Shown here: positions 3,017 to 21,680 of the stretch, in pieces | Layout of the letters: each line of letters begins with the position of its first letter | How positions within the stretch are numbered: the stretch's first letter is position 1 | Source: Hyphomicrobiales bacterium | Lineage (GTDB): Bacteria; Pseudomonadota; Alphaproteobacteria; Rhizobiales; Aestuariivirgaceae | Assembly (NCBI GenBank): GCA_026987255.1 | Contig: JALSNA010000469.1 | Location: forward strand, 1-24,225 | DNA: 24,225 nucleotides | Direction of reading: 5' to 3' | Made by a program: the position numbers and the translations under genes | Notes under the pieces: generated by a model | Databases searched by the model: none | What the model saw: only the letters and a program-made list of their open reading frames with translations | What the model was told of the DNA's origin: nothing

Positions 3017-3349
3017 ATGGGCTTCATCAGCAGCGATCTTTATCTGGCCTTCGCTCTGGCCGTCTTTTTTCTGCCCTTGCCGGCCATCTCTGTCTGGTTC
3101 CACCGCCGCATCCTCCGCACTCCGGGTGGACGCCGCCTCATGCAGGCGCAAAGAGGGGCCAGCCGCGTCAACATCTCCCTCAACGCCCCCGCCAGTCTGC
3201 GCGATGGCCTGCGCATGTTCAAGGATCTGCGCGCCGGAAAATACGGCCAGGACGCCAGGCATGTCATGCGCCGCACCTGGCAATTGCTGGCCCTGTGGCT
3301 GGCAGCCTGCGTTCTTGCCTTCGTCCCCCTGATCCTTACCCGCCCGTGA
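3017..3349 (+). CDS. Uncharacterised two-TM membrane protein
   Basis: I do not recognise this 110-aa protein. It has a hydrophobic segment at ~6-27 (DLYLAFALAVFFLPLPAISVW), a basic soluble middle (~28-86, with about ten Arg/Lys), and a second TM segment near the C-terminus (~88-107, LALWLAACVLAFVPLIL). The charge pattern predicts the middle in the cytoplasm. The ATG at 3017 has AAGGA nine bases upstream; a GTG at 2993 would add eight residues. It has its own candidate promoter and a tail-to-tail overlap of 14 bp with moaD. Codon use resembles its neighbours, so it is probably real, but the function is unknown. Confidence 0.7.
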   Translation: MGFISSDLYLAFALAVFFLPLPAISVWFHRRILRTPGGRRLMQAQRGASRVNISLNAPASLRDGLRMFKDLRAGKYGQDARHVMRRTWQLLALWLAACVLAFVPLILTRP

Positions 3350-3587
3350 CCGGCGGGAAGAAGGCCACCTCGCGCGCCCCGGCAATGGGCGTATCCAGAT
3401 CCGCATGCTCCTGATCCACCGCCACGCGCAGGCTTTCGCTCTCGCTCAAGGCATCGGCATGGGCCGCGTCGCGCCCTTTCAGCCATTGCAGCAGATCGGC
3501 CACGGTGCGCACATCATCGGGCGGGGTGACCTCCTCGCAGGCCATGCCCGCCTTCTGGCGCACCCAGGCAAAATAGAGGATTTTCAT
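3336..3587 (-). CDS. moaD: Molybdopterin synthase sulfur-carrier subunit
   Basis: The 83-aa protein has a ubiquitin-like MoaD fold pattern: it starts MKILYFAWVRQKAG, contains VRTVADLLQWL, and ends FFPPVTGG. The terminal Gly-Gly is the thiocarboxylated tail that donates sulfur to precursor Z (cPMP) in the MoaD/MoaE synthase. Its ATG overlaps the pgsA stop (ATGA), so it is the last gene of uvrC-pgsA-moaD. In other alphaproteobacteria moaE often follows immediately. Here a convergent, unrelated membrane-protein gene overlaps its last 14 bp instead, so moaE must lie elsewhere. Confidence 0.93.
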   Translation of the reverse strand: MKILYFAWVRQKAGMACEEVTPPDDVRTVADLLQWLKGRDAAHADALSESESLRVAVDQEHADLDTPIAGAREVAFFPPVTGG

Positions 3588-6188: not shown

Positions 6189-6455
6189 TAGGGCGTAGAC
6201 CCATAAACCACGCGCCGCCAGTTAGCCGGATTTTTGTTCTGGCAAGGCGCAGCCCCGCAGGAATAGCAGGGCTATTTCAAGGGGTTGCAACACTGCCAGG
6301 ACAAAAAATCCGGCTAACCCGAAGGGCGAGGATATCGCTTCATCCCAGCGGCTCGCGCCGCTTGCCAATAGAACCACTATTGACGGCGCATCGCAAGCCA
6401 CTGATATTTCGCGATATTCACGCTGGCGGCGCGGGGTTTATGGGTCTACGCCCTA
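6189..6455. mobile_element. MITE-like element A, 263 bp, with 31-bp terminal inverted repeats
   Basis: The ends 6191-6221 and 6423-6453 are inverted repeats matching at 30 of 31 positions, starting GGGCGTAGACCCATAAA. Each is flanked by TA inside a CTAG (6188-6191 and 6453-6456), consistent with a TA target duplication. A second, inner inverted repeat is at 6221-6244 and 6294-6318, with one mismatch and one extra A. The 104 bp at 6319-6422 interrupt the symmetry and form their own hairpin (GCGCCG 6355-6360 with CGGCGC 6384-6389; CAATAG 6366-6371 with CTATTG 6377-6382; ATATCGC 6332-6338 with GCGATAT 6411-6417). There is no open frame of note, so the element would depend on a transposase in trans. 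A truncated relative is at 9697-9790. Confidence 0.8.
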
Positions 6456-6519
6456 GGATCTGGTCTCAATAAAGGCGTGGATGCCAGTCTGGCGCCACGT
6501 TTTTGTTGAGTCCGGACCC
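6456..6519. mobile_element. Short palindromic element C, 64 bp, abutting element A and acting as a probable terminator
   Basis: The two halves pair over about 25 bp with 19 matches: GGATCTGGTCTCAATAAAGG at the left against GGGTCCGGACTCAACAAAAA read inward from the right. The element lies between TA at 6454-6455, which it shares with element A, and TA at 6520-6521. The core hairpin (CGTGG 6476-6480 with CCACG 6495-6499; GCCA 6483-6486 with TGGC 6490-6493) has TTTTT on its plus side and a TTTATT run on its minus side. It therefore reads as a bidirectional rho-independent terminator. On the minus strand it follows the permease stop codon directly. Its end GGGTCCGGACTCA resembles the end of element D (GGGTCAGCACTCA). 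Confidence 0.65.
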
Positions 6520-7673
6520 TAATCCAGGGTGCGGCGGAAGCGGACGACGGCGATGCCCATGACCACAAGCATGAAGATCAGCAGGGCGAAACCCTCGCGC
6601 GCCATGTCGGCAAAGCCCGCCCCCTTGAGCATGATGCCGCGCACGATGCGCAGATAATGGGTCAGCGGCAAAAGCTCGCCGATGAAGCGCGCCCACACCG
6701 GCATGCCGTGGAACGGAAACATGAAGCCGCTCATCAGGATGGAGGGCAGGAAGAAGAAAAACGACATCTGCATGGCCTGCAACTGGTTGCGGGCGATGGT
6801 GGAGATGGTATAGCCCAAGGACAGGTTGGCGGCGATGAAGATCAGGGTAAAGACCAAAAGCACCTGCGCAGGGCCGGCCAGCGGCACGCCGAAAAGCAGC
6901 CGCCCCGCCCCCATGATGATGGCCATCTGGATGAATCCGGCGATGATGTAGGGGGCGATCTTGCCGAGCATGATCTCCACCGGCCGCAAGGGCGTGGCCA
7001 AAAGCGCCTCCATGGTGCCGCGCTCCACCTCGCGGGTCACCGCAAGGCCGGTGAAGACCAGCATGGTCATGGTCAGGATCACGCCGATGAGCCCCGGAAC
7101 GATGTTGATGGCCGTCTTGCCGGCCGGATTGTAGCGCTTGTGCACCACCAGTTCGAAAGGCGCAGGCGTGGCCAGCAGATCCGCCCCAGGTCCGCGCAGG
7201 GCGCGGCGGAACACCCGCGTGGCCAGCGCCGATACCGCCGCCACCGCCCCGGAGGTGGTCACCGGATCGGTGGCGTCGGTGGCCAGCAGCATCTGCGGGC
7301 GCATCCCGGCGCGCAATTTGCGGCCGAAGCCGGGCGGAATCCGCAAGATGGCGATCACCTGCCCGGAACGCAACATGGCCTTGGCGCGCGCCTCGCTGGT
7401 CACTTCGCCGCGAATGTCGAAATAGCCGGTCTGCTTGACCGCGGCGACGAAATCGCGCGCCAGGGCGGAGGTATCGGCGCTCAGCACCGCCAGCGGCAGA
7501 TGCCTGGGCGTCATGTTGATGGCATAGCCGAAGAGCAACAGCTCCATCAGCGGAATGATGACGATCATCGCCAGGCTCAGCCGGTCGCGCTTGAGCTGGA
7601 TGAACTCCTTGATGATCATCGCCCACAGGCGCGGCACAAGGCGCGGCAGGGCATGTCCCTTCCGCCCGCTCAT
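6519..7673 (-). CDS. ABC-2 type exporter permease (YhhJ/YbhR family)
   Basis: The 384-aa inner-membrane protein has the DrrB/YhhJ layout: one TM segment near the N-terminus (~33-53, LSLAMIVIIPLMELLLFGYA), a periplasmic domain of ~120 residues, then five TM segments in the C-terminal half. The conserved segment VTREVERGTMEALLATPLRP (cytosolic coupling region) precedes TM3. It forms the export channel with the ATPase encoded just upstream; its ATG overlaps that gene's stop (ATGA). E. coli YbhFSR uses two different permeases; only one is encoded here, so it probably works as a homodimer. The substrate is unknown. Its stop codon is TAG, whose TA is the flank of element C and whose G is the first base of that element. 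Confidence 0.92.
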   Translation of the reverse strand: MSGRKGHALPRLVPRLWAMIIKEFIQLKRDRLSLAMIVIIPLMELLLFGYAINMTPRHLPLAVLSADTSALARDFVAAVKQTGYFDIRGEVTSEARAKAMLRSGQVIAILRIPPGFGRKLRAGMRPQMLLATDATDPVTTSGAVAAVSALATRVFRRALRGPGADLLATPAPFELVVHKRYNPAGKTAINIVPGLIGVILTMTMLVFTGLAVTREVERGTMEALLATPLRPVEIMLGKIAPYIIAGFIQMAIIMGAGRLLFGVPLAGPAQVLLVFTLIFIAANLSLGYTISTIARNQLQAMQMSFFFFLPSILMSGFMFPFHGMPVWARFIGELLPLTHYLRIVRGIMLKGAGFADMAREGFALLIFMLVVMGIAVVRFRRTLD

Positions 7674-8635
7674 GCGCCAGCCTCCCCGCCGCAGACCTTT
7701 GGCCTGTCCTCCATGAAGTGGATGAAAACGTCTTCCAGGGTCGGCGCATCGGCCGTGCAGGTCAGGCGCCGCGCCTTGCAGGCGGCATGGACGGCATCGG
7801 CCAGGGCCTTGCCCGCGCGCCCGGCCACGTGCATTTCGTCGCCGCGGAAGGTGACGCTCTCCACCTGTGGCAGGCCGGCCAGGTGCCGCGCCAGATCGTC
7901 AAGCCCCCGCCCTCCGGAAATGGAAAAGGCGGCCAGGCCGGATTGCGCCACGATCCTGTCCACCGGGCCATTGGCCAGGATGCGGCCCTTGTAGATATAG
8001 GCCAGTTCATGACAGCGCTCGGCCTCGTCCATGTAGTGGGTGGAAACCAGCACCGTCACCCCACGCGAGGCCAGGGCATGAATGCTGTCCCAGAAATCGC
8101 GCCGCGCCTTGGGATCGACCCCGGCGGTGGGCTCGTCCAGCAGCAGCAGTTGCGGATCGTGCAAGGTGCAGGCGGCCAGCGCCAGACGCTGTTTCCATCC
8201 CCCCGAAAGGGTGCCGGCCAATTGGTTGAGGCGCGCCCCCAGACCCATTTCGCGAGCCGTCCTTTCCGCCAGCTCCACAGGGCGGGCCATGCCATAGACA
8301 CGCGCCACGAAGGCCAGGTTCTCGCCCACGGTGAGGTCGGAATAGAGCGAGAACTGCTGCGTCATGTAGCCCACGTGCAGGCGGATCATGCGGCTTTCGC
8401 GCACGATGTCATAGCCCAGGCAGCGCCCGCCGCCACCGCTCGGCGTCAACAGGCCGCACAACATGCGGATGGTGGTGGTCTTGCCCGATCCGTTGGGGCC
8501 CAGAAAACCATAGATCTCGCCACGGCGCACCTTCAGGGAAATGCCCCTGACCACCTCGCGCCCGCCGAAGCTCTTGCGCAGGTTGTGCGCATCGATGGCC
8601 CATCCGGCAGCCTCTGTCCGGCCCTGCGCGCTCAT
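7670..8635 (-). CDS. ABC exporter ATP-binding protein (YbhF/DrrA type, single nucleotide-binding domain)
   Basis: The 321-aa protein has a full nucleotide-binding domain: Walker A GPNGSGKT (46-53), Q-loop around Q93, signature LSGGWKQR (143-150), Walker B LLLLDEP (163-169) and the switch histidine H200 in STHYMDEA. The C-terminal ~90 residues end in PTLEDVFIHFMED, typical of the DrrA/YhhH group. It powers the HlyD/permease exporter. The ATG overlaps the hlyD-like stop and the stop overlaps the permease ATG, both as ATGA. E. coli YbhF and RbbA carry two ATPase domains in one chain, while this one has a single domain. The open frame extends upstream to 9172 only as antisense-free read-through of the adaptor gene in another frame. 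Confidence 0.95.
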   Translation of the reverse strand: MSAQGRTEAAGWAIDAHNLRKSFGGREVVRGISLKVRRGEIYGFLGPNGSGKTTTIRMLCGLLTPSGGGGRCLGYDIVRESRMIRLHVGYMTQQFSLYSDLTVGENLAFVARVYGMARPVELAERTAREMGLGARLNQLAGTLSGGWKQRLALAACTLHDPQLLLLDEPTAGVDPKARRDFWDSIHALASRGVTVLVSTHYMDEAERCHELAYIYKGRILANGPVDRIVAQSGLAAFSISGGRGLDDLARHLAGLPQVESVTFRGDEMHVAGRAGKALADAVHAACKARRLTCTADAPTLEDVFIHFMEDRPKVCGGEAGA

Positions 8636-9636
8636 TTGCCCCTGTCTCCGGGGATCGTGAAGACATCCACCGGCTGGCCGATGGCCAGGCGCCCCATGCC
8701 ATCTTTCCCGGCCGGCCGCGCCTCGAAGCGATAGACCAGCCTGGCGCGCTCCCGCGGCGAGAAGATCACCGGCGGGGTATATTCCGCCTGACCGGAAATG
8801 TAGCTGATGCGGGCGAAAAAGTCCCTGCCGCAACCATCGCAACGGATGCGCACCTTGTCCCCAATGGCATGGCGGGCCCGCTGGCGTTCGGGGACATAGA
8901 AGCGGATTTTCAACATGGCAGGCGGCAGCACGGTGACCACCGGGCGCCCCGCGGCGACGATCTCGCCGGGGCGGAAATGCACCTCCTGCACCCGCCCGGC
9001 CACCGGCGAGAGCACCTTTGCGCGCAGCAATCGCACCCGCGCGGCGCGCACCTGGGCCTGCGCGGCGCGCACCTGCGCCATGGCGGCGTTGATCTGCTCG
9101 GCCCGCGCCGGCAGGCGCGCGCTTTGCAACTGGCGCAAGGCCTGATCGAAACGCGCCTTGTCGCGCTGCCATGCGCCGCGCGCCGCATCCAGCCGGGCGC
9201 GCGAGACCACCTTGCGGGCAAAAAGGCGGCGCATGCGCTCATATTCCGCCCGGCTCACCGCCAGGGCGGCGCGCGCCTCGTCCACCGCCGCCTCAAGGGC
9301 CTTGATCTCCTCCGGCCTGCGCCTTTGCGCCTCGGCAAGGCGCAGACTGGCGCGCGCCTGCTCCAGGCGCGCCGCAGCCAGCTCCAGGTCGGCCTGCAGC
9401 ACGCTGTCATCGAGCGCAAAGAGCTCCTGCCCGATGCGCACCGCATCGCCCTCGCGCACGTCCAGCTGCACCAGCCGCCCGGCCAGCTGTGGGCCAACAT
9501 GGATCAGATCGCCATCCACATAGCCCTGAAAGAACCGCTCCGCAGGCGGTGGAACCACCTTGTCCCAATACCGGTAGATCCCGGCCCCGGCGGCGGCCAG
9601 CGCCACGATGACCACAACGGGCAAAAGCCGTTTCAT
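8632..9636 (-). CDS. HlyD/YbhG-family membrane-fusion (periplasmic adaptor) protein
   Basis: The 334-aa protein has an N-terminal signal anchor (MKRLLPVVVIVALAAAGAGI), a split biotinyl-lipoyl domain (VDGDLIHVGPQLAGRLVQL and later SPVAGRVQEVHFRPGEIV), and a long alanine/arginine-rich coiled coil between them (~75-190). A C-terminal barrel region carries IRCDGCGRDFFARISYIS and AEYTPPVIFS, both characteristic of the YbhG/YhiI subgroup. It should bridge the inner-membrane ABC pump and an outer-membrane channel, perhaps a TolC-type protein; none is encoded here. The ATG at 9636 has GGGAGGA eight to nine bases upstream, which decides it against the upstream in-frame start at 9663. It is the first gene of a three-gene operon joined by two ATGA overlaps. 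Confidence 0.93.
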   Translation of the reverse strand: MKRLLPVVVIVALAAAGAGIYRYWDKVVPPPAERFFQGYVDGDLIHVGPQLAGRLVQLDVREGDAVRIGQELFALDDSVLQADLELAAARLEQARASLRLAEAQRRRPEEIKALEAAVDEARAALAVSRAEYERMRRLFARKVVSRARLDAARGAWQRDKARFDQALRQLQSARLPARAEQINAAMAQVRAAQAQVRAARVRLLRAKVLSPVAGRVQEVHFRPGEIVAAGRPVVTVLPPAMLKIRFYVPERQRARHAIGDKVRIRCDGCGRDFFARISYISGQAEYTPPVIFSPRERARLVYRFEARPAGKDGMGRLAIGQPVDVFTIPGDRGK

Positions 9637-9696
9637 GAGCAATGTCCTCCCGCCCCCGTCCATCCGCCACCTGCGGGCATTGTTTCACCACATGGG

Positions 9697-9790
9697 CGGC
9701 AAGGCAAGCGCGGGGCTGTTTCAAGGGGTTGCAACACTGCCAGGACGAAAATCCGGCCAACTGGCGGCGCGGGGTTTATGGGTCTGCGCC
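9697..9790. mobile_element. Truncated relative (copy B) of element A
   Basis: This segment shares with element A the block GGCTxTTTCAAGGGGTTGC, then CAACACTGCCAGGAC, AATCCGG and finally CTGGCGGCGCGGGGTTTATG up to GGTCT. Here the inner repeat runs directly into the terminal repeat, as on the left side of element A read in reverse. The 104-bp block seen at 6319-6422 is absent. The opposite end is missing or eroded (GGCAAGGC at 9697 is the last recognisable part), and the outer tip reads GCGCCTTGG rather than CGCCCTAG. It lies in the 172-bp gap between folB and the exporter operon and is probably immobile. Confidence 0.75.
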
Positions 9791-9808
9791 TTGGAGCGCT
9801 TGCGCCCT

Positions 9809-10231
9809 TCAGGGCAGATCCTTGCGCCGTTCGATCTCCACCCCGACCGAGGCCGCTTCGGGGAAGATGTCGGGCTTTTCCACCCGCACCCGGACGGCCA
9901 GCACATAGGGGTTCTCCAGGCTTTTCCGGGCGATCATGTCCGCCAGGGTTTCCACCAGATGCACATGCCCATCGGAGACGATGGCCTTGATGTGATCGAC
10001 CACCTTTTCATAGGAGACCACCTTGTGAATGTCGTCCTCCAGCGGATCGTTGCGCTCGCGCACCGTCAGATCGACATTGATGATCACCCTTTGCGGCTCC
10101 AGCTTCTCGAAGTCATGCACCCCCAGCATGGCCTTCAAGGTCAGATCGCGCACGAAGACATGCGCCAGCCCATGACGGGCCGAGGCAATGGCCCCGCTCA
10201 TCACCGAAGCGGCGGTATTTTCCCTGTCCAT
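9809..10231 (-). CDS. folB: Dihydroneopterin aldolase
   Basis: FolB cleaves 7,8-dihydroneopterin to 6-hydroxymethyl-dihydropterin and glycolaldehyde in folate synthesis. The 140-aa protein shows the family pattern: LTLKAMLGVHDFEKLEPQ with the likely pterin-binding Glu at 42, SYEKVVDHI (73-81), HLVETLADMIA (91-101) and the catalytic-lysine segment VEKPD (117-121, K119). The ATG at 10231 has AGGGGA about 8 nt upstream; a second in-frame ATG at 10201 would remove a 10-residue non-conserved extension. It follows the FolM/PTR1-like reductase on the same strand after 89 bp. folK, which often comes next in related genomes, is not here; an eroded MITE fragment occupies the downstream gap. Confidence 0.92.
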   Translation of the reverse strand: MDRENTAASVMSGAIASARHGLAHVFVRDLTLKAMLGVHDFEKLEPQRVIINVDLTVRERNDPLEDDIHKVVSYEKVVDHIKAIVSDGHVHLVETLADMIARKSLENPYVLAVRVRVEKPDIFPEAASVGVEIERRKDLP

Positions 10232-10320
10232 GATGAAATCCCCTGGATGATGAAGCCTGCCCGCACACCTTGCGCCATCGCGGCATGGAGTCAAGCGCAG
10301 CCTTGCGCCGGAGGCCCTCG

Positions 10321-11100
10321 TCACTCGTTCACTTCGGTGATGTCCGGCGTCTGCCAGTTCAGGTGCTGGCCGCCGTCCAGGGTGATCATCTGCCCGGTCA
10401 TCGCCGGGGCCGAAAGGATGAACATCACCGCATCGGCGATTTCCTCCGGGCTTGCCCCGCGCCCCAGCAGCGTCAGGGCGCACTGTCTGGCGAAATCCTC
10501 CTCGCTCATGCGCGCATTGGCCAGGGTGGGGCCGGGCGAGATGGCGTTGACCCGGATAGCCTCCACCGCCAGCGCCTGCGCCATGGTGCGCGTCGCCGTC
10601 CACAGGCCCGCCTTGCTCAGGGTATAGGAGAAGAACAGCGGATTGAGCTTCAGCACCCTTTGGTCGATGATGTTGATGACATTGCCCTCTTCCCCCTTGC
10701 GTTTTTGCCCGGCGAAGGCCTGGGCCAGCAGCACCGGGGCGCGCAGATTGATGTTCATGTGCGCCTCCCAGTCCTCCAGCAGCATGGTCTGGATGGTATC
10801 GGGCTCGAACCGCGAGGCATTGTTGATCAGCACCGACAAGGGCCCCAGCGCCCTGACCGCATCGAGCACGATCTTCAGGGGCGTTTCCGCATCGGCCAGA
10901 TCGCCCTGCACCAGCGCCGCCACCCCGCCCGCCGAGACGATCTCGCGCGCCAGCTCTTCCGCCTCCTGCCGCGAGGAGCCGTAATGGATGGCCACCGGAT
11001 GACCCGCCTTCGCCAGCCGCAACGCAATGGCCCGCCCGATGCGCATCGCCGCGCCGGTCACCAGGGCAGCGCCTTTCCCGCCGTCACGCTCCATCGTCAT
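10321..11100 (-). CDS. FolM/PTR1-type pteridine reductase (short-chain dehydrogenase)
   Basis: This 259-aa Rossmann-fold SDR looks like a pteridine reductase rather than a generic SDR. It has TGAAMRIG (15-22) with the Arg that the PTR1 family uses to contact NADPH, HYGSSRQEA (39-47), and NNAS (93-96). The catalytic set is D146, Y159 and K163: an aspartate replaces the usual serine, 13 residues before the tyrosine, as in Leishmania PTR1 (D181/Y194/K198). Related FolM enzymes reduce dihydromonapterin or dihydrofolate. Its neighbour folB supports a pterin role. The ATG overlaps the stop of the CCA enzyme (ATGA); an in-frame ATG at 11094 is a minor alternative. The substrate is inferred, not shown. 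Confidence 0.85.
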   Translation of the reverse strand: MTMERDGGKGAALVTGAAMRIGRAIALRLAKAGHPVAIHYGSSRQEAEELAREIVSAGGVAALVQGDLADAETPLKIVLDAVRALGPLSVLINNASRFEPDTIQTMLLEDWEAHMNINLRAPVLLAQAFAGQKRKGEEGNVINIIDQRVLKLNPLFFSYTLSKAGLWTATRTMAQALAVEAIRVNAISPGPTLANARMSEEDFARQCALTLLGRGASPEEIADAVMFILSAPAMTGQMITLDGGQHLNWQTPDITEVNE

Positions 11101-12323
11101 GCGCCCTCCTCCTCGATCACCCGCGCCAGCAGAGCCAGCAGGCCCTCCCTGCCTTCCGGAACGAACCCTTGCGCCAGCCAGCGCTCTTCCACCTTGCGCA
11201 GAATCTGCCCCACCCGCGCCCCCGGCGCAACGCCCGCCGCCAGCGCATCCGTCCCGCGCAGCGGGAAAACCGGCGCCGTCCATTCCTTCGCCAGCTTCAC
11301 CAGGGCGGCGAAGTCCGCATCCCCCAAGGCCCCGCGCGCATGCGCCAGGCGCGCCGCGCCGCAGGCCGCATCATTGCCATGCCGGTAGATGAACGCCCGC
11401 CAGTTCCCGTCCCCGGGCACCGCAAGGGCGCCAAGCTGCGCCACCACCCGGCTTTCCGCCCGCGACAGCCGGAAGGCATCGCGCAATTGCTCCCCCGGCC
11501 CGCACAGGGCGCACAGGCGCAACAGCCAGTCCGCCGCCAGTCCGAAACGCTCATCGTCCAGGGCCATCCGCGCCAGCGCCATGCGATCGCCCTCGCAGGC
11601 GGCCGGGAACACCTGCCCATCCACCCCCGTTCCGGCCATGAACAATACCGCCTCCACGGCCCGCGGCGCCACCAGCAGCCGCGAGATTTCCGCCCGGATG
11701 CGCTCGCGCGAAATGCGCCCCAGCCCCGCCCGCTCCGCCTCGCAGGCGGCCAGCGCCTCGGCATCCGGCGCATCCGCCCCATAGCGCGCCCAGAAACGAA
11801 AAAACCGCAAGATGCGCAGATAGTCCTCGCCAATGCGCGCCCGCGCATCGCCGATGAAACGCACCCGGCGCGCCATGAGATCGCCATATCCCCCCAGGGG
11901 ATCGAACACATGTCCAGCGGCATCCGCATAGAGCGCGTTCATGGTGAAATCGCGCCGCGCCGCGTCCGCCGCCCAGTCCGCCGTGAAGGCCACCTTGGCA
12001 TGGCGGCCATCCGTTTCCACATCGCGCCGCAAGGTGGTCACCTCGAAGGCCCGCCCGCGCCTGGAGACGATGACCGAGCCATGATCGAGCGCCACCGGAT
12101 GCACCGCGAACCCCGCCTCTTTCGCCAGCCGCATGGCCTCTTGCGGCGGCCAGGCGGTGGCGATATCGACATCCTCCACCACCTCGCCCAGCAGGGCATT
12201 GCGCACCGCTCCGCCGACGATGCGCGCCTTGTCCCTCCCCAGGGCGCGCAACAGCCCCTGCAATTGCGGATCCATGAGCCACGGCTGGCCCTTCAGGGAG
12301 GGCAATTCAGGCGTTTTCGTCAT
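11097..12323 (-). CDS. cca: CCA-adding enzyme / tRNA nucleotidyltransferase (class II)
   Basis: The 408-aa protein belongs to the class II nucleotidyltransferases. It has the GG.VR active-site loop (VGGAVRNALLG, 36-46), the metal-binding DVD (51-53), RRDFTMNALY (123-132), which flips between CTP and ATP pairing, and the neck EDYLRILRFFRFWARYG (166-182). It should build or repair the 3' CCA of tRNAs. The alternative poly(A) polymerase (PcnB) has near-identical motifs, but the genomic setting next to CoA pyrophosphatase favours the CCA enzyme in this class. The ATG at 12323 has GGGAG 7 nt upstream and overlaps the Nudix gene by 17 bp; an upstream in-frame start (12386) is not needed. Confidence 0.9.
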   Translation of the reverse strand: MTKTPELPSLKGQPWLMDPQLQGLLRALGRDKARIVGGAVRNALLGEVVEDVDIATAWPPQEAMRLAKEAGFAVHPVALDHGSVIVSRRGRAFEVTTLRRDVETDGRHAKVAFTADWAADAARRDFTMNALYADAAGHVFDPLGGYGDLMARRVRFIGDARARIGEDYLRILRFFRFWARYGADAPDAEALAACEAERAGLGRISRERIRAEISRLLVAPRAVEAVLFMAGTGVDGQVFPAACEGDRMALARMALDDERFGLAADWLLRLCALCGPGEQLRDAFRLSRAESRVVAQLGALAVPGDGNWRAFIYRHGNDAACGAARLAHARGALGDADFAALVKLAKEWTAPVFPLRGTDALAAGVAPGARVGQILRKVEERWLAQGFVPEGREGLLALLARVIEEEGA

Positions 12324-12951
12324 GAACCAGCTCCCACATCTGCCGCAAGATGGCCGCCGTCGCCCCCCAGACGCGATATGCGCCATATTGCATCACCCAG
12401 TAGCGCCGCATCTTGCCGCGCCAGAAAATCTCCTCCCGGCGATGATTGCGCGCATCCATGAAAAAGGCCAGCGGAATGGTGAAGACCTCCGCCACCTCGC
12501 GCGCGCAGGGACAGACCGGATACCCGGCCCCCACCACCCCCACCAGCGGCGCGATGACGAACCCCGTGGCCGTCTCGTGGGCCGGCAGAAAGCCTAAGGG
12601 CGTGATGAAGTCCGCCCCTATGCCCACCTCCTCGCCCGTCTCGCGCAGCGCCGCCTGCAGGGCCGTTTCACCTGCCGCCATGCCGCCGCCGGGAAAGGCG
12701 ATCTGCCCCGCATGGGCAGGCATGTCCGCGCTGCGCCGCGTCAGCAGCACATCGAATCCCTGCGCCCCTTCCACCAGCGGCACCAGCACCGCCGCCCGCC
12801 GCCCGCTGGCGCGCGAAAGATCCGGCGCATCCGGTGCAAGCCGCCGCGCCAGGCGGCGTAAAATCTCCCTGTCCGTCCCCCTTGCGTCCATGCTCTCCCG
12901 GCCCTGCCCTGTGCCCGCCTGTGAACCATCTTGCGAAAGCGCCACATCCAT
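12307..12951 (-). CDS. Nudix hydrolase, CoA pyrophosphatase (NudL/NUDT7 type)
   Basis: This 214-aa Nudix protein carries both diagnostic motifs. The NuCoA motif LLTRRSADMPAHAGQIAFPG (69-88) directly precedes a full Nudix box (89-111: GG...GE, seven residues, RETGEEVGI). Such enzymes split CoA or its acyl/oxidised forms into 3',5'-ADP and 4'-phosphopantetheine. It is the first gene of a minus-strand run with cca and the pteridine reductase, and is divergent from the MoxR operon. Two starts are possible: the ATG at 12951 (AGG close upstream) or the ATG at 12891 (GGGAG three bases upstream), which gives a 194-aa protein closer to the family length. The first 20 residues are low-complexity and not obviously conserved. 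Confidence 0.9.
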   Translation of the reverse strand: MDVALSQDGSQAGTGQGRESMDARGTDREILRRLARRLAPDAPDLSRASGRRAAVLVPLVEGAQGFDVLLTRRSADMPAHAGQIAFPGGGMAAGETALQAALRETGEEVGIGADFITPLGFLPAHETATGFVIAPLVGVVGAGYPVCPCAREVAEVFTIPLAFFMDARNHRREEIFWRGKMRRYWVMQYGAYRVWGATAAILRQMWELVHDENA

Positions 12952-12963
12952 GACCTGTTTTTA

Positions 12964-12975
12964 ATGCTATAGCAT
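12964..12975. promoter_or_regulatory. 12-bp perfect palindrome between divergent operons, candidate operator
   Basis: ATGCTATAGCAT is a perfect palindrome in the short gap between the Nudix gene (start 12951) and moxR (start 13030). It contains TATAGC on both strands, so it could hold a -10 box for either operon. No convincing -35 box is seen at the right distance for either direction. Confidence 0.3.
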
Positions 12976-13029
12976 GAGCCGATGTTTTATGGATTCCATC
13001 ACGGTGGAAAAGACAAGGCAGGAATGCAC

Positions 13030-14031
<1,002 letters not shown>

Positions 14032-14032
14032 C

Positions 14033-14962
14033 TTGGCCCGCCCAGCCAAATCCGGCCCCGGCCAGCGCGCCGCCTTGCGCCATGATGCCGATGCCCTGGG
14101 CCATGCCCTGCCCGCCCTGCTCATCGAGGCGCGAAGGGTGGCGCAATCGGTCATGCACGGGGTGCATGGCCGCCGCCAGCCCGGCCCCGGCGAGGAGTTC
14201 TGGCAATACCGCGCCTATGCGCAGGGCGATTCCGCCGCCGAAATCGACTGGCGCAAATCGGCCCGCGCCGAACGCGTCCTGGTGCGCGAGAACGAATGGA
14301 TGGCCGCCAACACCCTGTGGCTGTGGGTGCAGACCGATGAAGGCATGAGCTATCATTCGCACCTGGCCCCGGTGAGCAAGGCACACCGCGCCGCCCTCAT
14401 CGCCCTGGCCCTGGCCACCCTGGCCACCCGCGCCGGAGAGCGCATCTGCGCCATCGGCGCGCCCCACCGCCCCGATCACACCGCCCGCGCCGTGGAGAAT
14501 CTCGCCGCCTGGATCGATCCGCAAGATCCCGCCAGACGCGACAATCTGCCGCCCGCCGCCCAGCTGCCGCGCTTTTCCACCTGCGTGCTCATCGGCGATC
14601 TTTTCGCTCCGCCGCAGGCCCTGGAGGAGCGCATCCGCCAGCTCGCCGCCCGCGGCGCGCGCGGCCACCTGCTGCAGGTGGTGGATCCGGCCGAGGAGAC
14701 TTTTCCCTTCACCGGCCGCACCATTTTCGAGGATTTCGCCTCCAGCGATTCCCTCACCCTGGGCAAGGCCGAGGAGCTGCGCGCCGCCTACCAAGAAAGG
14801 CTTACCGCCCACCGCGATCATCTGAAAACCCTGGCGCGGCGGCTGAACTGGACCTTCCAGGTGCACCGCACCGACAGCCCGCCACAGGCCGCCCTTCTGG
14901 CCCTGCATGCGCGCATCGGCGGCCAGGCGCGCGCATCTGTGGCCATGGGAGGGACATCATGA
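14033..14962 (+). CDS. DUF58 domain protein, partner of MoxR
   Basis: The 309-aa soluble protein has the DUF58 core in its first third: GRRQPGPGEEFWQYRAYAQG at about 46-65, then D...EIDWRKSARAERVLVRE. The C-terminal half has a vWA-like Rossmann pattern (CVLIGDLFAPP, RGHLLQVVDPAEE) but no clear metal-binding site. DUF58 proteins nearly always accompany MoxR ATPases; biochemical function is not established. The start is a TTG at 14033: it is the only in-frame start before an ATG that would cut into the DUF58 core, and AAGGAAAGG lies upstream. The stop overlaps the next ATG (ATGA). Confidence 0.9.
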   Translation: MARPAKSGPGQRAALRHDADALGHALPALLIEARRVAQSVMHGVHGRRQPGPGEEFWQYRAYAQGDSAAEIDWRKSARAERVLVRENEWMAANTLWLWVQTDEGMSYHSHLAPVSKAHRAALIALALATLATRAGERICAIGAPHRPDHTARAVENLAAWIDPQDPARRDNLPPAAQLPRFSTCVLIGDLFAPPQALEERIRQLAARGARGHLLQVVDPAEETFPFTGRTIFEDFASSDSLTLGKAEELRAAYQERLTAHRDHLKTLARRLNWTFQVHRTDSPPQAALLALHARIGGQARASVAMGGTS

Positions 14963-17790
14963 CCACCCTTTCGGCCATCACCTTCGCCCACCCGGCCGCC
15001 CTCGTGGCGCTCCTCGCCCTGCCGGTCATCTGGTGGCTGCTGCGCGCCACCCCGCCACGCCCCAGGCGGGTGCGTTTCGCCCCCTTCCGCATCCTGCTCG
15101 GAATAAGGCAACGCCAGCAGCAGGCCGCCCGCACCCCCTGGTGGCTGCTGGCCCTGCGCCTGGCCCTGGCCTGTGCCCTCATTCTCGCCGTGGCCGGCCC
15201 GCGCATCGCCCCGCCCGGCCCCTCCCTGGCCGCAAATGCGGCAAAGGGCCCCCTCCTCGTCATCCTCGATGACGGCTGGCCCTCGGCCGCCAACTGGCAG
15301 GCCATGAAAAGCGCCCTGGAAAGCGCCCTGCGCCAGGCGGAGCGCGCCGCCCGCCCGGTGATCCTCGCCACCACCGCGCCCCGGGCCGCCGCCATATCGC
15401 TTGCCGCCCGCCCCGCCCGCGCCTGGCTCGACGCCTTGCCCTCTTTCGTTCCCTCGGCCCTGACGCCCGATCGCGCCGCCTTGCAAAAGCGGCTGCAAAG
15501 GCTCTCGCCGCCGCCTGCCCACATCCTCTGGCTCTCCGGCGGGCTCGATCACGGCCAGGCCGCAGCCTTCGCCGCCGCCTTGCTGAAATTGACCGGCTCC
15601 GTGCGCCTGCTGGCCCCGCCTCCCCAGCGCCTGCCGCTCATTCTCTCCCCGCCCAGGCTTGCAAAAGGCGTCTTGCACATCGGCCTGCGCCGCGCCCATC
15701 GGCGCGCCAAAAGCTCCGCCCATGTCGTCCTGCGCGCCCGCAACGGCCGCCCCCTGGGCGAGGCCGTGGCCACATTCGCCCCCGGCAAGACCACCGCCGG
15801 CGCCCGCCTGTCCCTGCCCCTGGCGATCCGCAACGAGGCGGCCATGCTGACCATTTCCGGCCAGAACCACGCCGCCGCCACCTGGCTGTTCGACGACAGC
15901 TTCCGGCGCAAGAGCGTCCTTGTTCTCTCCGGCGAGAGCCGCCGCCGCGGCCAGCCCCTGCTCTCGCCCGCCTATTACATCCTGCGCGCCCTGCAACCCA
16001 TCGCCGAGGTGCGCGAAATCCCCTCCATCGCCGCCCTCGAGGGCAAACTCGATTCCACCCTCTCCATGCTCGTCCTTGCCGATATAGGCAAGCTCGATGC
16101 GCCTCGCGCCGCCGCCATCCGCAAGTGGGTGCGGGCCGGCGGCGTTCTGGTGCGCTTTGCCGGCCCGCGTCTGGCCGCCGGGCATGACGATCTGGTGCCG
16201 GTGCGCCTGCGCGCCGGTGGCCGCCAGCTGGGCGCGGCCCTGAGCTGGGAAAAGCCGCAAGGACTGGCCCCTTTCCCGAAAAACTCGCCGCTGGCCGGAT
16301 TGTCGCCGGATCGCGACATCAAGATCACCCGCCAGGTTCTCGCCGAGCCCGATGCCAATCTGGCCGCCCATACCTGGGCCGCCCTGGAGGACGGCACGCC
16401 ACTGATCACCGCCCGCAGACAAGGCGCCGGCCTGCTGGTGCTCGTTCACACCACCGCCAACCCGGACTGGTCGAACCTGCCCCTTTCCGGTCTTTTCGTC
16501 GACATCCTCGCGCGCATCACCGCCCTTGCCCCCGCCGCCCGCCCGCCCGGCTCCCGTGGCAAGGCCGCGGCCGCCACCGTTGCCCTGGCCGCCCCCTTCA
16601 CCCCCGTGCGCGCCCTCGACGGATTCGGCAACCTCGGCCCCATCCCGCCCGATGCCGCCCCCATCCGCGCCGCCGCCTTCGCCACCACCCGCCCCTCGCC
16701 GCGCCATCCGCCGGGCCTTTATGCCCGCCCCGGCCAGCAAAGGGCGCTCAATGTCACGGATGGGAAAACCCGCCTTGCGCCCTTGCCCGCCCTGCCCGCG
16801 GCAATCGCCCGCTCAGGTTATGAAGCCGCCCCGGCGCGCGATTTTGCCCCTGCTCTCTTCGCCGCTGCCTTCGCGCTTTTCGTGCTCGATCTGGCCGCCA
16901 TGCTGGCCCTGTCCGGAGCCGGTTTCAGCCTGCGCAAACAGACCACATCCGCCGCCCTTGCGCTTTTCGCCCTCTTGCTGGCCACGGCTCCCCAGCCCGC
17001 ATACGCCGCCCGGGACGGCAAGCAGCCAGACCCCCAGGCCCTGCAATTTGCCTTGCGCGCCACCTCCCGCACCCATCTGGCCTATGTTCTGACCGGCAAC
17101 GCCGAAGTGGACGAGATCTCCCGCGCCGGCTTGTCGGGGCTGTCCGCCTATCTGACCATGCGCACCTCCGTGGAGCCCGGCGAGCCCTTCGGCATCAACC
17201 TGGAGCGCGACGAGATCGCCTTCTTCCCGCTCATCTACTGGCCTATCACCGCCGATGCCAGGCCGCCCTCGGCAAAGGCGCGCGAAAAGCTCGACATCTA
17301 TCTGAAAAACGGCGGCATGATCCTTTTCGACACCCGCGATGCCGCCGAAGCCGCCACCCGGCCCGGCACGCCCACCCCCCGCGCGCGCGCCCTGCGCCGC
17401 ATCCTCGCCGGCCTCGACATCCCGCCGCTGGAGCCCGCTCCGCCCACCCATGTGCTGACCCGCACCTTCTATCTGCTCAAGAGCTGGCCGGGCCGCCATG
17501 ATTCCTCGCCGCTGTGGGTGGAGGCCACCTCCGCCGGGGCCGAACAGCGCAAGCTCTCGCCGGGCAACGCCGATGGCGTCTCCGCCATCCTCATCACCGG
17601 CAACGACATGGCCGGGGCCTGGGCCACATCCGCCTCCGGGCGGCCATTGCTGCCGGTCATTCCCGGCGGCGCGCGCCAGCGTGAATACGCCATCCGCGCC
17701 GGCATCAACATCGTCATGTATGCCCTGACCGGCAACTACAAGGCCGACCAGGTGCACATTCCGGCCATACTCAAAAGGTTGGGACAATGA
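14959..17790 (+). CDS. BatA/DUF4159 membrane protein with glutamine-amidotransferase-like middle
   Basis: The 943-aa protein is a known alphaproteobacterial fusion. It starts with a BatA-type N-terminus with two TM helices (~11-29 and ~62-80) around RRVRFAPFRILL. A vWA-like strand VILDDGWPSA (101-110) follows, in which the metal-site DxSxS motif is not intact. A long middle domain (~330-540) resembles class I glutamine-amidotransferase folds (VLVLADIGKLD, KWVRAGGVLVRFAGP) without an obvious catalytic cysteine. Two TM helices follow near 631-653 and 666-683, then a C-terminal DUF4159 domain (~690-935: FGINLERDEIAFFPLIYWPI, YLKNGGMILFDTR, IPGGARQREYAIRAGINIVM). The second of these TM helices ends in AYA-ARDG, like a signal-peptidase site. 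It is coupled by ATGA overlaps to both neighbours. Function unknown. Confidence 0.87.
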   Translation: MTTLSAITFAHPAALVALLALPVIWWLLRATPPRPRRVRFAPFRILLGIRQRQQQAARTPWWLLALRLALACALILAVAGPRIAPPGPSLAANAAKGPLLVILDDGWPSAANWQAMKSALESALRQAERAARPVILATTAPRAAAISLAARPARAWLDALPSFVPSALTPDRAALQKRLQRLSPPPAHILWLSGGLDHGQAAAFAAALLKLTGSVRLLAPPPQRLPLILSPPRLAKGVLHIGLRRAHRRAKSSAHVVLRARNGRPLGEAVATFAPGKTTAGARLSLPLAIRNEAAMLTISGQNHAAATWLFDDSFRRKSVLVLSGESRRRGQPLLSPAYYILRALQPIAEVREIPSIAALEGKLDSTLSMLVLADIGKLDAPRAAAIRKWVRAGGVLVRFAGPRLAAGHDDLVPVRLRAGGRQLGAALSWEKPQGLAPFPKNSPLAGLSPDRDIKITRQVLAEPDANLAAHTWAALEDGTPLITARRQGAGLLVLVHTTANPDWSNLPLSGLFVDILARITALAPAARPPGSRGKAAAATVALAAPFTPVRALDGFGNLGPIPPDAAPIRAAAFATTRPSPRHPPGLYARPGQQRALNVTDGKTRLAPLPALPAAIARSGYEAAPARDFAPALFAAAFALFVLDLAAMLALSGAGFSLRKQTTSAALALFALLLATAPQPAYAARDGKQPDPQALQFALRATSRTHLAYVLTGNAEVDEISRAGLSGLSAYLTMRTSVEPGEPFGINLERDEIAFFPLIYWPITADARPPSAKAREKLDIYLKNGGMILFDTRDAAEAATRPGTPTPRARALRRILAGLDIPPLEPAPPTHVLTRTFYLLKSWPGRHDSSPLWVEATSAGAEQRKLSPGNADGVSAILITGNDMAGAWATSASGRPLLPVIPGGARQREYAIRAGINIVMYALTGNYKADQVHIPAILKRLGQ

Positions 17791-19895
17791 CCCAGACACA
17801 CCTGTCCCTCACCTTCGCCCCCGCTTTGCCGCTGTGGCTCATCGCCGCTGGAGCCATGGCCGCGCTCGTCCTCATCGTGCTGCTGTGGCGCGCCCGCCGC
17901 CAGACCCCGGCCATGCTGGCGCGCCTCGCCGCCGCCGCCGTGCTCACCCTGGCCCTGCTCGATCCGCGCATGGAACGCCAGCAACGCCAGCCCCTGGAGA
18001 GCATCGCCGTGGTGCTCACCGACGATTCCCTCTCCCAGGCGGTGAACGGCCGCCGCCAGCGCGCCCGCAAGGCCGAAGGCCTGCTGCGCCAGCGCCTCGC
18101 CGCCATCAAGGGCCTGCAAACCCGCTTCGTCACCCTGCCGCCCGCCCCCGGCCGCGATGGCACCCGCCTCATCCATGCCCTGCGCGAGGCCCTGGCCGAT
18201 GTTCCCCCGGAGCGTTTCGCCGGCGCCATGCTCATCACCGATGGCCAGGTCCACGACATGCCAAGGGATGCGCGCGCCGCCCTGCCCCCGGGCTATGACG
18301 CCCCTGTCCATGTGCTCATCGACGGACGCAAGGACATGCCGGACCGCCGCGTGGTCATCCGCCAGGCGCCCCGTTACGGCATCGTCGGCAAGGACCGGAC
18401 CATTCGCTTCACCATCACCCAGACCCCGCCGCCTGCGCCGGGGGCGCGCATCCGCGTCACCATCCGCACCGGCGGCGAGGAATGGGGCGTCCTTTCCGTG
18501 CGTCCCGGCGAGCCGGTAAACCTGGATCTGCCGGTGGCCCACGCCGGGCAGAACATCCTGGAGATCATCGCCGCGCCCATGCCCGGCGGCGAACTCTCCT
18601 TGCGCAACAACCACGCCGTCATCATCACCAAGGGCGTGCGCGACCGGCTGCGCGTGCTGCTCATCTCCGGCGAGCCGCACCCGGGCGAGCGCACCTGGCG
18701 CGACCTGTTGAAATCCGACCCTTCCGTGGATCTGGTGCATTTCACCATCCTGCGCTCGCCGGAAAAGCAGGACGGCACACCCATCCGCGAGCTTTCCCTC
18801 ATCGCCTTTCCCACCCGTGAGCTTTTCGTCGACAAGCTCGACAGTTTCGATCTGGTCATTTTCGACCGCTACCAGCGCCGCTCCATCCTGCCTGCCGCCT
18901 ACATGGAGAACGTCGCCGATTATGTGAACAACGGCGGCGCGGTGCTCTTCACCGCCGGGCCGGAGTTCGCCGGCGTCTTCTCCCTCTCCCGCACCCGGCT
19001 GAAAAGCGTCATTCCCGCCAGCCCCGCCGGTGTCCTGGAACAGCCATACCGCCCCCGCCTCAGCGCCACCGGCCTGCGCCATCCGGTAACCCGCGGCCTG
19101 GCGGGAGCCAACGCAACCGCCACCACCGCCCCCACTTGGGGCCGCTGGTTCCGCATCGTGCGCAGCCATGCCGCCCCCGGCGCGCAGGTGCTCATGACGG
19201 GGCCGCGAAAGTCCCCCTTGCTGGTGCTGGCCCGCCGTGGCGAGGGCCGCATCGCCGCCCTGCTCTCCTCCCAGATCTGGCTGTGGGCACGCAAGTATGA
19301 CGGCGGCGGCCCCCATGTGGAGCTCTTGCGCCGCCTTGCCCACTGGCTGATGAAGGAACCGGAACTGGAGGAGGAGGCCCTCTCCGGCGCGTCCGAAGAT
19401 GGCGGATTGCGCATCACCCGCCGCAGCATGAAGACGGATTTGCCGCCGCTGCGCGTCACCGGCCCCGATGGCAAGGTGCGCGAACTCCCCCTGCGCCAGC
19501 GCGCCCCTGGCATTTTCACCGCCATGCTCAAGAACGCCCCGCCCGGCCTCTACCGGCTGCAAAACGGCGCTCTGGAGCGCCTCGCCGCCGTCGGCGGACT
19601 GAACACCCTGGAAAGCCGCGCCCTGGCCGCCACCGGCAGCATCCTCGCCCCCCTGGCGGCTTTCACCGGCGGCGCCGTGCGCTGGATCGCGCGCGGACAA
19701 AAGGAGGTCTTTGTGCCACGCGTCATCATGATGCCGCAAGGCCGCGCCATGTCCGGCGGCGGCTGGCTGGGGCTGAAGAAATCGCAAGCCTCACGCCTGA
19801 TCGCCACCTCCCGCATCGGGCTCTTTTCCACCCTGCCCATGCTCGCCGCCGCCCTTTTGCTGCTCGCCCTGGCCTGGCGGCTCGAGGGCCGCTGA
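17787..19895 (+). CDS. Large membrane protein with vWA domain, last gene of the MoxR operon
   Basis: The 702-aa protein has two N-terminal TM helices (~13-33 and ~44-59) and a C-terminal one (~675-698). Just after TM2 is a vWA domain with what looks like an intact MIDAS site: DxSxS as D79-S81-S83 (LTDDSLS), a threonine in DGTRL (T126) and an aspartate in LITDGQVHD (D152). The middle contains amidotransferase-like segments (LRVLLISGEPHPGERTWRDL; DYVNNGGAVLFTAGPEF). Its partner proteins are encoded upstream; the ATG overlaps the previous stop. vWA proteins are the usual clients of MoxR ATPases, so this is the likeliest client here. Its last 105 bp overlap the GNAT gene on the other strand. Confidence 0.85.
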   Translation: MTQTHLSLTFAPALPLWLIAAGAMAALVLIVLLWRARRQTPAMLARLAAAAVLTLALLDPRMERQQRQPLESIAVVLTDDSLSQAVNGRRQRARKAEGLLRQRLAAIKGLQTRFVTLPPAPGRDGTRLIHALREALADVPPERFAGAMLITDGQVHDMPRDARAALPPGYDAPVHVLIDGRKDMPDRRVVIRQAPRYGIVGKDRTIRFTITQTPPPAPGARIRVTIRTGGEEWGVLSVRPGEPVNLDLPVAHAGQNILEIIAAPMPGGELSLRNNHAVIITKGVRDRLRVLLISGEPHPGERTWRDLLKSDPSVDLVHFTILRSPEKQDGTPIRELSLIAFPTRELFVDKLDSFDLVIFDRYQRRSILPAAYMENVADYVNNGGAVLFTAGPEFAGVFSLSRTRLKSVIPASPAGVLEQPYRPRLSATGLRHPVTRGLAGANATATTAPTWGRWFRIVRSHAAPGAQVLMTGPRKSPLLVLARRGEGRIAALLSSQIWLWARKYDGGGPHVELLRRLAHWLMKEPELEEEALSGASEDGGLRITRRSMKTDLPPLRVTGPDGKVRELPLRQRAPGIFTAMLKNAPPGLYRLQNGALERLAAVGGLNTLESRALAATGSILAPLAAFTGGAVRWIARGQKEVFVPRVIMMPQGRAMSGGGWLGLKKSQASRLIATSRIGLFSTLPMLAAALLLLALAWRLEGR

Positions 19896-20408
19896 AGACT
19901 TGCCCACCCACCTGTGAGCGGGCAGCACCAGCCCCCTTGCCCCGGCCAGCGCCCCCGGCACAAGCTCCAGCGCCAGCAACCGGTGCGGGTCGAAGGGGCC
20001 GGGCATGAGCAACTGCCCTTCCGGCACCGGCTGAAACCCGAAGCGGCCATAATAGGGCCCATCCCCCACCAGCAGGATCAGGCGCTGTCCGCCCGCCCGC
20101 GCCGCCGCCAGCGCCTCCGCCATCAGCCGCCCGCCCAGCCCCCGGCCATGAAAGTCCGGATGCACCGCCAGGGGCCCCAGCAGCAGCGCCTCATGGCCAT
20201 CTTGCCCGATGCGCAAGGGCCACAGGGAAACCACCCCGGCCAGCCGTCCCGTGGCCGCTTCATGGGCGCTGAAGGAAAAAACGGGCCGCGCCCCCTCGCG
20301 CAGCCGGTAGGAGGTCTTCATCCGCCGCAATGGCCCGAAGGCCGCATCCAGCAGATCGTTGGCCGCGTCTTCCGGCGCGGCCGTCCCGGCAATGACAAAA
20401 TCGCTCAT
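19791..20408 (-). CDS. GNAT N-acetyltransferase (COG3153/YhbS type)
   Basis: The 205-aa protein has the GNAT acetyl-CoA loop HGRGLGGR (87-94) after LLGPLAVHPDF, and the C-terminal YYGRFGFQPVPE (119-130) typical of YhbS-like enzymes. The substrate is unknown. I start at the ATG at 20408; the frame is open to 20495 but that part lies over a hairpin and shows no family similarity. No strong Shine-Dalgarno is seen. The last ~35 residues (rich in Gly, Glu, Gln) are antisense to the C-terminal TM helix of the vWA protein. The tail beyond WVGKSSAALEPPG is probably not part of the fold. Confidence 0.87.
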   Translation of the reverse strand: MSDFVIAGTAAPEDAANDLLDAAFGPLRRMKTSYRLREGARPVFSFSAHEAATGRLAGVVSLWPLRIGQDGHEALLLGPLAVHPDFHGRGLGGRLMAEALAAARAGGQRLILLVGDGPYYGRFGFQPVPEGQLLMPGPFDPHRLLALELVPGALAGARGLVLPAHRWVGKSSAALEPPGQGEQQKGGGEHGQGGKEPDAGGGDQA

Positions 20409-20464
20409 GGAAAAATCAGCGGCAAAACCCGCTCTCCCGGAAAAACCATCTCGAACACATGGAT

Positions 20465-20489
20465 CATGAGCCCACCCGGGGGGCTCATG
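20465..20489. repeat. GC-rich hairpin upstream of the GNAT gene
   Basis: CATGAGCCC (20465-20473) and GGGCTCATG (20481-20489) form a 9-bp perfect stem with a 7-nt loop. On the minus strand it lies 14 nt after the stop of a 17-codon open frame and about 56 nt before the GNAT ATG. A TTTTT run comes 17 nt after it, preceded by a weak CCAT/ATGG stem. It may be an attenuator-like leader or a terminator for miaA. There is no direct evidence for either. Confidence 0.5.
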
Positions 20490-20502
20490 GAACAAGGCAC
20501 GC

Positions 20503-20556
20503 CTACAGCGCCGCGATTCGTCGTCGCAATGTGTTCTTGAACGCCGTCATGTCCAT
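20503..20556 (-). CDS. Possible 17-residue leader peptide
   Basis: The frame encodes MDMTAFKNTLRRRIAAL and ends with TAG, 14 nt before the hairpin at 20465-20489. It has three consecutive arginine codons of one type (CGA CGA CGA), a rare type in GC-rich genomes. No good Shine-Dalgarno precedes it; the second ATG at 20550 is an alternative start. It could be a leader peptide of an attenuator or chance. I do not recognise the sequence. Confidence 0.2.
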   Translation of the reverse strand: MDMTAFKNTLRRRIAAL

Positions 20557-20608
20557 ATCCGGCTGGATGTTTTTCCGTTTGCGCCCCGCTTGGGAGACAA
20601 AGACGAGT

Positions 20609-20774
20609 TAGGGTCAGCACTCATGAAGAGGGATGGCAGATGCAGGATTTGGGCAAAATATCAGCGTTCTTTCGTCCGCAGGCAATACCTTGAAGGTATT
20701 GTCAAGGGCGAAAGGGCGCTGATATGCAGCATAAATCCTGCAGATGCCGTGCAAATTCGTGAGTGCTGACCCTA
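20609..20774. mobile_element. MITE-like element D, 162 bp, inserted at the miaA stop codon
   Basis: The ends GGGTCAGCACTCATGAA (20611-20627) and its inverted copy (20756-20772) match at 16 of 17 positions. They are flanked by TA at 20609-20610 and 20773-20774 (TTAG on the left, CTAG on the right). The whole element is one long imperfect palindrome centred on 20692, where CAATACCTT and AAGGTATTG flank a single base; further paired blocks include GCAGGATTT with AAATCCTGC and ATATCAGCG with CGCTGATAT. There is no transposase frame. On the minus strand the right TA plus the first G of the element make the TAG stop of miaA. Confidence 0.82.
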
Positions 20775-21680
20775 GCACCAATCGTTTTCGCGCGCAAGCC
20801 GCAGCGCCTCTGCCCGCGCCTCCTCCGGGCTCGGCCAATGCCAGTCCTTCATGAACTTGCGCGCCCAGGTCATCTGCCGCTTGGCGTATTGGCGCGTCGC
20901 ATTGACCGATTTTTCCACCGCCTCCTCCATGGAGATGTCCCCCGCCAGCGCCCGGCCGATCTGCGGCACGCCGATGGCCCGCATCACCGGCAGATCCGCA
21001 TCCAGACCGCGCGCCATGAGCGCGGCCACCTCCGCCACCGCCCCGGCCCGCATCATCCAGGCAAAGCGCTCGGCGATGCGCGCCCGCAGGATGCCGCGCT
21101 CCGGCGCCACGAACAGCCGCAGGACATCCACGCCAGCCAGCACCCCCGCCTGCCCCGCCGCCTGAAAGTCCTCCAGCCGCCGCCCCGTCGCCAGCCGCAC
21201 CTCCACAGCCCGCGCCAGCCTCTGGAGATCAAGGCCGGCATCGATCCCCAGCGCCTCTGCCTTCCGCCGCAAGGCCCGCGCGTCCTTTCGCGCCAGGGCG
21301 CGCACCTGGGCGCGGATGTCCTCCGGAATGGGCGGCACCCCGGCCAGCCCCTCTTCGAGCACCTTGAAATAGAGCCCCGTGCCGCCGGTGAAGATGGGCA
21401 CGCCCCCTTCCCGCCAGATGCCTTGCGCCGCATCGCGCGCCTCGGCGAGCCAGCGCCCGGCGCTGTAGGGCGCATCCGCCGCCACATGCCCATAGAGCAC
21501 ATGCCGCGCCCTGGCCTCGTCTGCGGGCGAAGGCCGCGCCGTGAGCAGCCGCAGATCGCCATAGACCTGCATGGAATCGGCATTGACGATCACCCCGCCC
21601 AGACCTTGCGCCAGGGCCAGCGCAATTGCCGACTTGCCCGAGGCCGTCGGCCCTGCAATAAGGATGGCGCGCCTGTCCAT
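20772..21680 (-). CDS. miaA: tRNA dimethylallyltransferase
   Basis: MiaA adds the isopentenyl group to A37 of tRNAs that read codons starting with U. The 302-aa protein has the P-loop GPTASGKS (10-17), DSMQVY (35-40) with the catalytic Asp, GGTGLYFKVL, the RAIGVPQIGRAL region and the C-terminal QYAKRQMTWARKF. The length is normal and the C-terminus (ARENDWC) is not obviously truncated. The ATG at 21680 is divergent from serB with only 34 bp between the start codons. The stop codon TAG is built partly from element D: removal of the element and one TA gives GATTGGTGCTAACTCGTC, so the ancestral stop was TAA at the same place. Confidence 0.95.
   Translation of the reverse strand: MDRRAILIAGPTASGKSAIALALAQGLGGVIVNADSMQVYGDLRLLTARPSPADEARARHVLYGHVAADAPYSAGRWLAEARDAAQGIWREGGVPIFTGGTGLYFKVLEEGLAGVPPIPEDIRAQVRALARKDARALRRKAEALGIDAGLDLQRLARAVEVRLATGRRLEDFQAAGQAGVLAGVDVLRLFVAPERGILRARIAERFAWMMRAGAVAEVAALMARGLDADLPVMRAIGVPQIGRALAGDISMEEAVEKSVNATRQYAKRQMTWARKFMKDWHWPSPEEARAEALRLARENDWC

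Follow-up and report, generated by a model that had tools for sequence, protein, structure and literature searches.

Palindromic, probably IS427-like, MITEs that insert at YTAR sites and rebuild host stop codons as UAG in a Hyphomicrobiales genome

The window analysed here is contig JALSNA010000469.1 (24,225 nucleotides; C469 in our numbering) of a Hyphomicrobiales bacterium, hereafter the host, whose assembly (GCA_026987255.1) comprises 2.50 Mb in 529 contigs. It carries three palindromes with related ends that resemble miniature inverted-repeat transposable elements (MITEs): A (about 263 bp), C (64 bp, with 250-bp relatives) and D (162 bp), each of which is bounded by two TA dinucleotides. 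As a preliminary description of this DNA had stated, C and D occupy the TA of a stop codon, that of a permease gene and that of miaA respectively, and A and C have one TA in common. We consider it probable that all three belong to the non-autonomous MITEs of IS427-like insertion sequences (ISs) of the IS5 family, that they target the tetranucleotide YTAR (Y, pyrimidine; R, purine) and that harmful insertions have mostly been lost. This kind of element is known; the bias of its copies towards stop codons is the interesting part.

In both genes the present stop TAG consists of the target TA followed by the first G of the element. The left flank of D gives TAA as the stop of miaA before insertion, which is now TAG, while the outer flank of A gives TAG as the former stop of the permease gene, which is still TAG. 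Insertion thus recreates UAG, as had been proposed, because the element starts with G; this is a consequence of that first base and no extra property. The accompanying statement that all elements begin with GGG holds for the stop-side end of C (GGGTC) but not for its left end (GGATC). At 40-59% identity, 57 loci from named genomes match the window MiaA; these are alphaproteobacterial almost throughout. In two relatives (G005 and G009) MiaA has the same terminal residue as in the window, followed by a TAA stop, and in four others (G002, G003, G004 and G006) the C-termini are different; the permeases of G002, G003 and G005 share the terminal residue of the window permease and stop with TGA. MiaA and the permease thus keep their native C-termini, with no truncation.

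The elements are not isolated in the window. Alignment of D against the host (40 of 66 first-look candidates scored) gave 58 alignments: 41 represent direct copies, and in the other 17 the palindrome matches itself on the reverse strand. The shared end pattern TAGGGNNNNGNCYCAN{0,1}TAAA has 97 matches in the host and its reversed control has none, and, compared with shuffled sequences, the predicted RNA folds reach z-scores of -12.9 (D), -5.7 (C) and -14.3 (A). These data show that the elements are not a product of chance. The C family comprises copies of 250/251 bp and 64-bp forms built from both tips of the longer element. At eight host sites, counted by eye, two elements have one intact TA in common, as do A and C. 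Element D has no match in plasmids. Many host contigs (for example C11, C89 and C129) start or finish inside a D element, so that the assembly appears to be interrupted by the palindromes.

We tallied insertion sites in the 61 host contigs that carry end-pattern matches, a set that leaves out D copies on contigs with no exact match (for example C119 and C148). From 131 fuzzy end matches, those with three or more mismatches and no TA were removed together with one match on C229, and the remainder were paired into 83 elements; merging of neighbours and removal of unpartnered ends lacking TA led to 68 sites. TA is present on both visible outer sides of 27 of these, the others being truncated at a contig end or changed on one of the sides. 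A pyrimidine precedes TA at 89 of the 93 TA-flanked outer ends, and 24 of the 27 two-sided sites are YTAR (CTAG 9, CTAA or TTAG 12, TTAA 3), which extends to the host the YTAR-type flanks described for the window. The target duplication is the 2-bp TA that characterizes an IS427-like MITE of the IS5 family. The preliminary description had further assumed that TA is scarce inside genes. This proved wrong: among 4,500 free TAs in the element-bearing contigs, 3,524 lie in predicted coding sequences (CDS), 910 are intergenic and 66 are at stops. The corresponding numbers of free YTARs are 35, 145 and 16. As only 35 of the 3,524 free CDS TAs are YTAR, it is YTAR, and not TA, that is scarce inside genes.

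Predicted stop codons contain 16 of the 93 outer ends, and the other 77 lie elsewhere. The tetranucleotide-weighted expectation is 4.8 ends on the background of the element-bearing contigs, 9.3 on that of 40 contigs picked by number (C260-C299) and 6.1 on both (p = 2e-5, 0.02 and 3e-4, respectively). Of the 27 two-sided sites, stops account for 8, against 2.8, 5.4 and 3.5 expected on the same three backgrounds (p = 0.005, 0.16 and 0.02), so that these sites alone show no significant excess over the 40-contig background. Their flanks indicate that the stop before insertion was TAG in six cases and TAA in two. All these numbers are small and rest on home-made gene calls, which may choose antisense frames in GC-rich DNA, on copies that are not fully independent and on loci chosen because they carry elements or ends.

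We then compared occupied and free ends at CTAG, CTAA and TTAG; TTAA and non-Y ends are omitted from these tables, which hence count 13 stop ends and not 16. In the host, the occupied/free numbers are 13/10 at stops, 9/4 up to 20 bp downstream, 9/13 at 21-60 bp, 13/45 further away and 28/68 on the 5' side of genes. Stop YTARs are occupied more often than the remaining non-coding ends taken together (odds ratio 2.8, p = 0.03). They are not occupied more often than those in the first 20 bp downstream (Fisher p = 0.50), showing that the host bias is directed towards gene 3' ends generally. Tolerance of gene 3' ends suffices for the stop bias of the host. The suggestion that the elements home to stops is therefore only partly borne out: stops are enriched, but most ends lie elsewhere and the adjacent 20 bp are equally occupied. 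Neither of the outcomes named beforehand as contradicting it was observed, since the flanks conform to YTAR and insertions at stops are more frequent than the background of non-coding YTARs predicts.

We compared the ends of these elements with those of ISs in related genomes. The ends of the C family are identical over 18/18 bp, and that of the window's own C copy over 15/15 bp, to an IS remnant of the same genus (G001) that runs into a decayed DUF4096 gene. Element D is identical over 14/14 bp to an IS end in G007, where the D-type end GGCTCAGGACCCATAAA is followed by a DUF4096 orfA truncated by the contig edge. No similarity beyond the tips was reported between the C and D families and the matching ISs. 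An 844-bp IS with both ends present was found in G036 (locus L206); its open reading frames match PF13340 (DUF4096) and PF01609 (DDE_Tnp_1). A full-length IS with such ends, which the preliminary description had proposed to look for, thus exists in a relative; the host assembly yielded none, and no IS matching element A was found. Among the 11 genomes of the genus, 5 have matches to PF13340, 4 of them above the cut-off; the host has none. The ends shared with IS427-like ISs of relatives bear out the proposal that an IS5-family group is the likely source of transposase. The other source proposed, the IS630 (Tc1/mariner-like) family, targets TA, and a TA duplication with a preference for CTAG would fit it. 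It is nevertheless very improbable that the elements belong to this family: the host assembly contains no match to DDE_3 (PF13358), and the ISs whose ends match those of the elements encode DUF4096 and DDE_Tnp_1 transposases. Near position 1400 of locus L232 (G002), a different DUF4096 IS is preceded by GACTAGGCCGTGTTTACA, perhaps also a CTAG-like site.

The window elements have features in common with several described systems. IS870 of Agrobacterium requires CTAG and makes a stop codon from it; that stop belongs to the IS's own gene, whereas here it is the stop of a host gene. The IS427-group ISs of Paracoccus, in the passages of PMC3281130 that describe them, are alphaproteobacterial ISs of 832-865 bp with two overlapping reading frames and mostly 2-bp direct repeats. 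The ISs of the relatives agree with them in length, reading frames and repeats; unlike these autonomous ISs, the window elements have only 64-263 bp and no transposase. Neither "stop codon" nor "CTAG" occurs in the main text of PMC3281130. Escherichia coli IS5, as presented in part of PMC5493358, targets Py-T-A-Pu, most frequently CTAG (15 of the 24 sites listed), which agrees with YTAR; IS5 duplicates four bases, in contrast to the TA of the window elements. The bacterial MITEs RUP and Correia are described in passages of PMC2229807 as short, stem-loop forming sequences with TA at their ends that are thought to be mobile in trans, RUP being linked to IS630-Spn1. The window elements share their size, stem-loops and TA ends, and these passages mention no rebuilt host stops. 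Among the papers listed by searches of the open-licence literature for MITEs or IS5-family elements at stop codons, none treated the rebuilding of host stops in its title or abstract opening.

We propose that an IS427-like transposase acting in trans would insert the elements at the TA of YTAR, a step that duplicates TA, as the flanks show. A TAA or TAG stop preceded by a pyrimidine is such a site, and insertion there would rebuild UAG in frame and leave the protein whole, as seen for miaA and the permease. CTAG may end two convergent genes, and insertion would then rebuild both stops. Survivors would accumulate at stops and at the 3' ends of genes because insertions that damage genes are presumably mostly lost, and insertion at the junction left by an earlier element would produce neighbours with a common TA, which are thus explained by the same scheme. 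Landing in stop codons is in this way partly a by-product of the YTAR target. Rebuilding of the stop would allow an element to spread through a GC-rich genome by simple means and with almost no harm. The elements thus provide a case, accessible to counting, in which the target of a mobile element overlaps half of the stop codon and the codon is repaired by the first base of the element.

Ends of this type are present in at least 40 of 298 relatives and, with a narrower pattern and the host included, in at least 40 of 397 genomes of the order; counts in the relatives refer to the first places of each genome. Sites at stops number 1/14 in G007, 3/8 in G010, 0/4 in G008, 1/10 in G108 and G147, 6/8 in G297 and 1/2 in G111 and G145. 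With 20 further loci, ends at stops are 2/29 in genus g50 (G108, G147, G278), 13/29 in g117 (G297, G417, G329, G343, G395) and 2/3 in G236. The stop bias thus differs between lineages: g117 has a strong one, the host a moderate one and g50 none. Owing to this unevenness, insertion preference can be tested directly against selection. Ten of the 17 genes listed as ending at such stops were scanned; a Pfam domain above the cut-off, with its matched stretch, is present in nine, and one (L370) has marginal matches only. Several one-sided sites of g117 lack the far end or have it in diverged form, and the original tetranucleotide is not readable there. In locus L376 (G329), a 264-bp element at 3112-3375 lies in one CTAG and rebuilds the stops of convergent LysR-type and amino-acid dehydrogenase genes; this CTAG seems formerly to have been the stop of both. 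In g50 (L280-L288 and L364-L369), related elements of 263-265 bp are frequently located between divergent genes and not at stops.

Several observations weigh against the explanation that we favour. The profile search of the host assembly gave no match to PF13340; repeated ISs may be missing from this assembly of many contigs, none of the 101 examined being shorter than 2,530 bp. The host has two PF01609 transposases (C221 and C16), which we rejected as the source, no TA-flanked end of this type being present in the loci read. When flanks were joined by script, a gene call spanned 8 of 66 two-sided sites (3/27 in the host, 4/14 in the genus set and 1/25 in family f41), and the idea that no copy lies within a gene was rejected. 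The C229 copy looks like a real insertion, 28 bp before the end of a gene. Two other spanned host sites, on C124 and at A and C in the window, were both tallied as stops: the stop assignment on C124 is doubtful, while the call spanning A and C is an antisense artefact, the minus-strand permease being backed by orthologues. The rows for occupied CDS in the occupied/free tables (CDS 0/n) carry no evidence, as the tables could not register such sites. Insertions into genes are therefore few, not absent, which lowers our confidence both in the explanation that we favour as a whole and in homing to stops. Finally, occupied/free YTARs in g117 are 13/10 at stops and 1/4 in the first 20 bp downstream, a bias beyond simple tolerance, and in g50 stops are 2 occupied and 9 free, with no bias.

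The g117 data would be accounted for by true homing, in which the transposase prefers stop YTARs on account of the surrounding sequence or DNA structure outside the tetranucleotide, before any selection. Stops of this genus are occupied far more than its other non-coding YTARs (13/142), and in family f41 the odds ratio for stops is 5.6 against the rest (p = 1e-5) and 5.4 against the first 20 bp downstream (p = 0.05). The low proportions in g50, G007 and G008 and the equal occupancy of the adjacent 20 bp in the host argue against it, as do the small counts and the gene calls on which they depend. We regard such a preference as unlikely, although most plausible in g117; that some IS427-like MITEs home to stop codons by either target choice or strong retention, beyond YTAR and 3'-end tolerance, has in our view a probability of about one in five and is likewise unlikely. 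Somewhat less probable still is retention by benefit, in which a hairpin just past the stop would protect or terminate the mRNA and copies at gene ends would be kept. The strong hairpins predicted in RNA (-87.3 kcal/mol for D, -168.6 for A) and the host bias towards gene 3' ends are consistent with this idea, whereas the many copies upstream of genes (28 occupied 5'-side ends) are not; nor did the D copies at stops (6) differ visibly in divergence from the others (14), being neither older nor younger.

The coordinates of the elements and of the stops that they rebuild are collected in Table 1, along with a degenerate remnant.

Table 1. Elements, flanking TAs and rebuilt stop codons in the window
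Feature	Position	Strand	Remark
Element A, about 263 bp, palindromic, MITE-like	6191..6453	.	ends GGGCGTAGACCCATAAACC; similar-length copy on C89
TA common to A and C	6454..6455	.	left flank of C
Element C, 64-bp form	6456..6519	.	two tips of 250-bp element; right TA 6520-6521
Permease stop TAG	6519..6521	-	target TA + first G of C
Degenerate A-type end or element remnant	9738..9790	-	whole degenerate stretch 9710-9791; no flanking TA
Left TA flanking D	20609..20610	.	
Element D, 162 bp, of 161/162-bp family	20611..20772	.	ends GGGTCAGCACTCA; right TA 20773-20774
miaA stop TAG	20772..20774	-	target TA + first G of D

An Rfam search of the window gave nothing at the gathering score. Elsewhere in the window, positions 2141-2208 contain a 25-nt inverted repeat (96%) around GGTTGGCAGGGGTGAGGATGG. 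With at most 2 mismatches allowed, 8 similar units were located on 7 of 101 host contigs, two of them being the arms of this repeat, and they possibly represent another dispersed repeat family.

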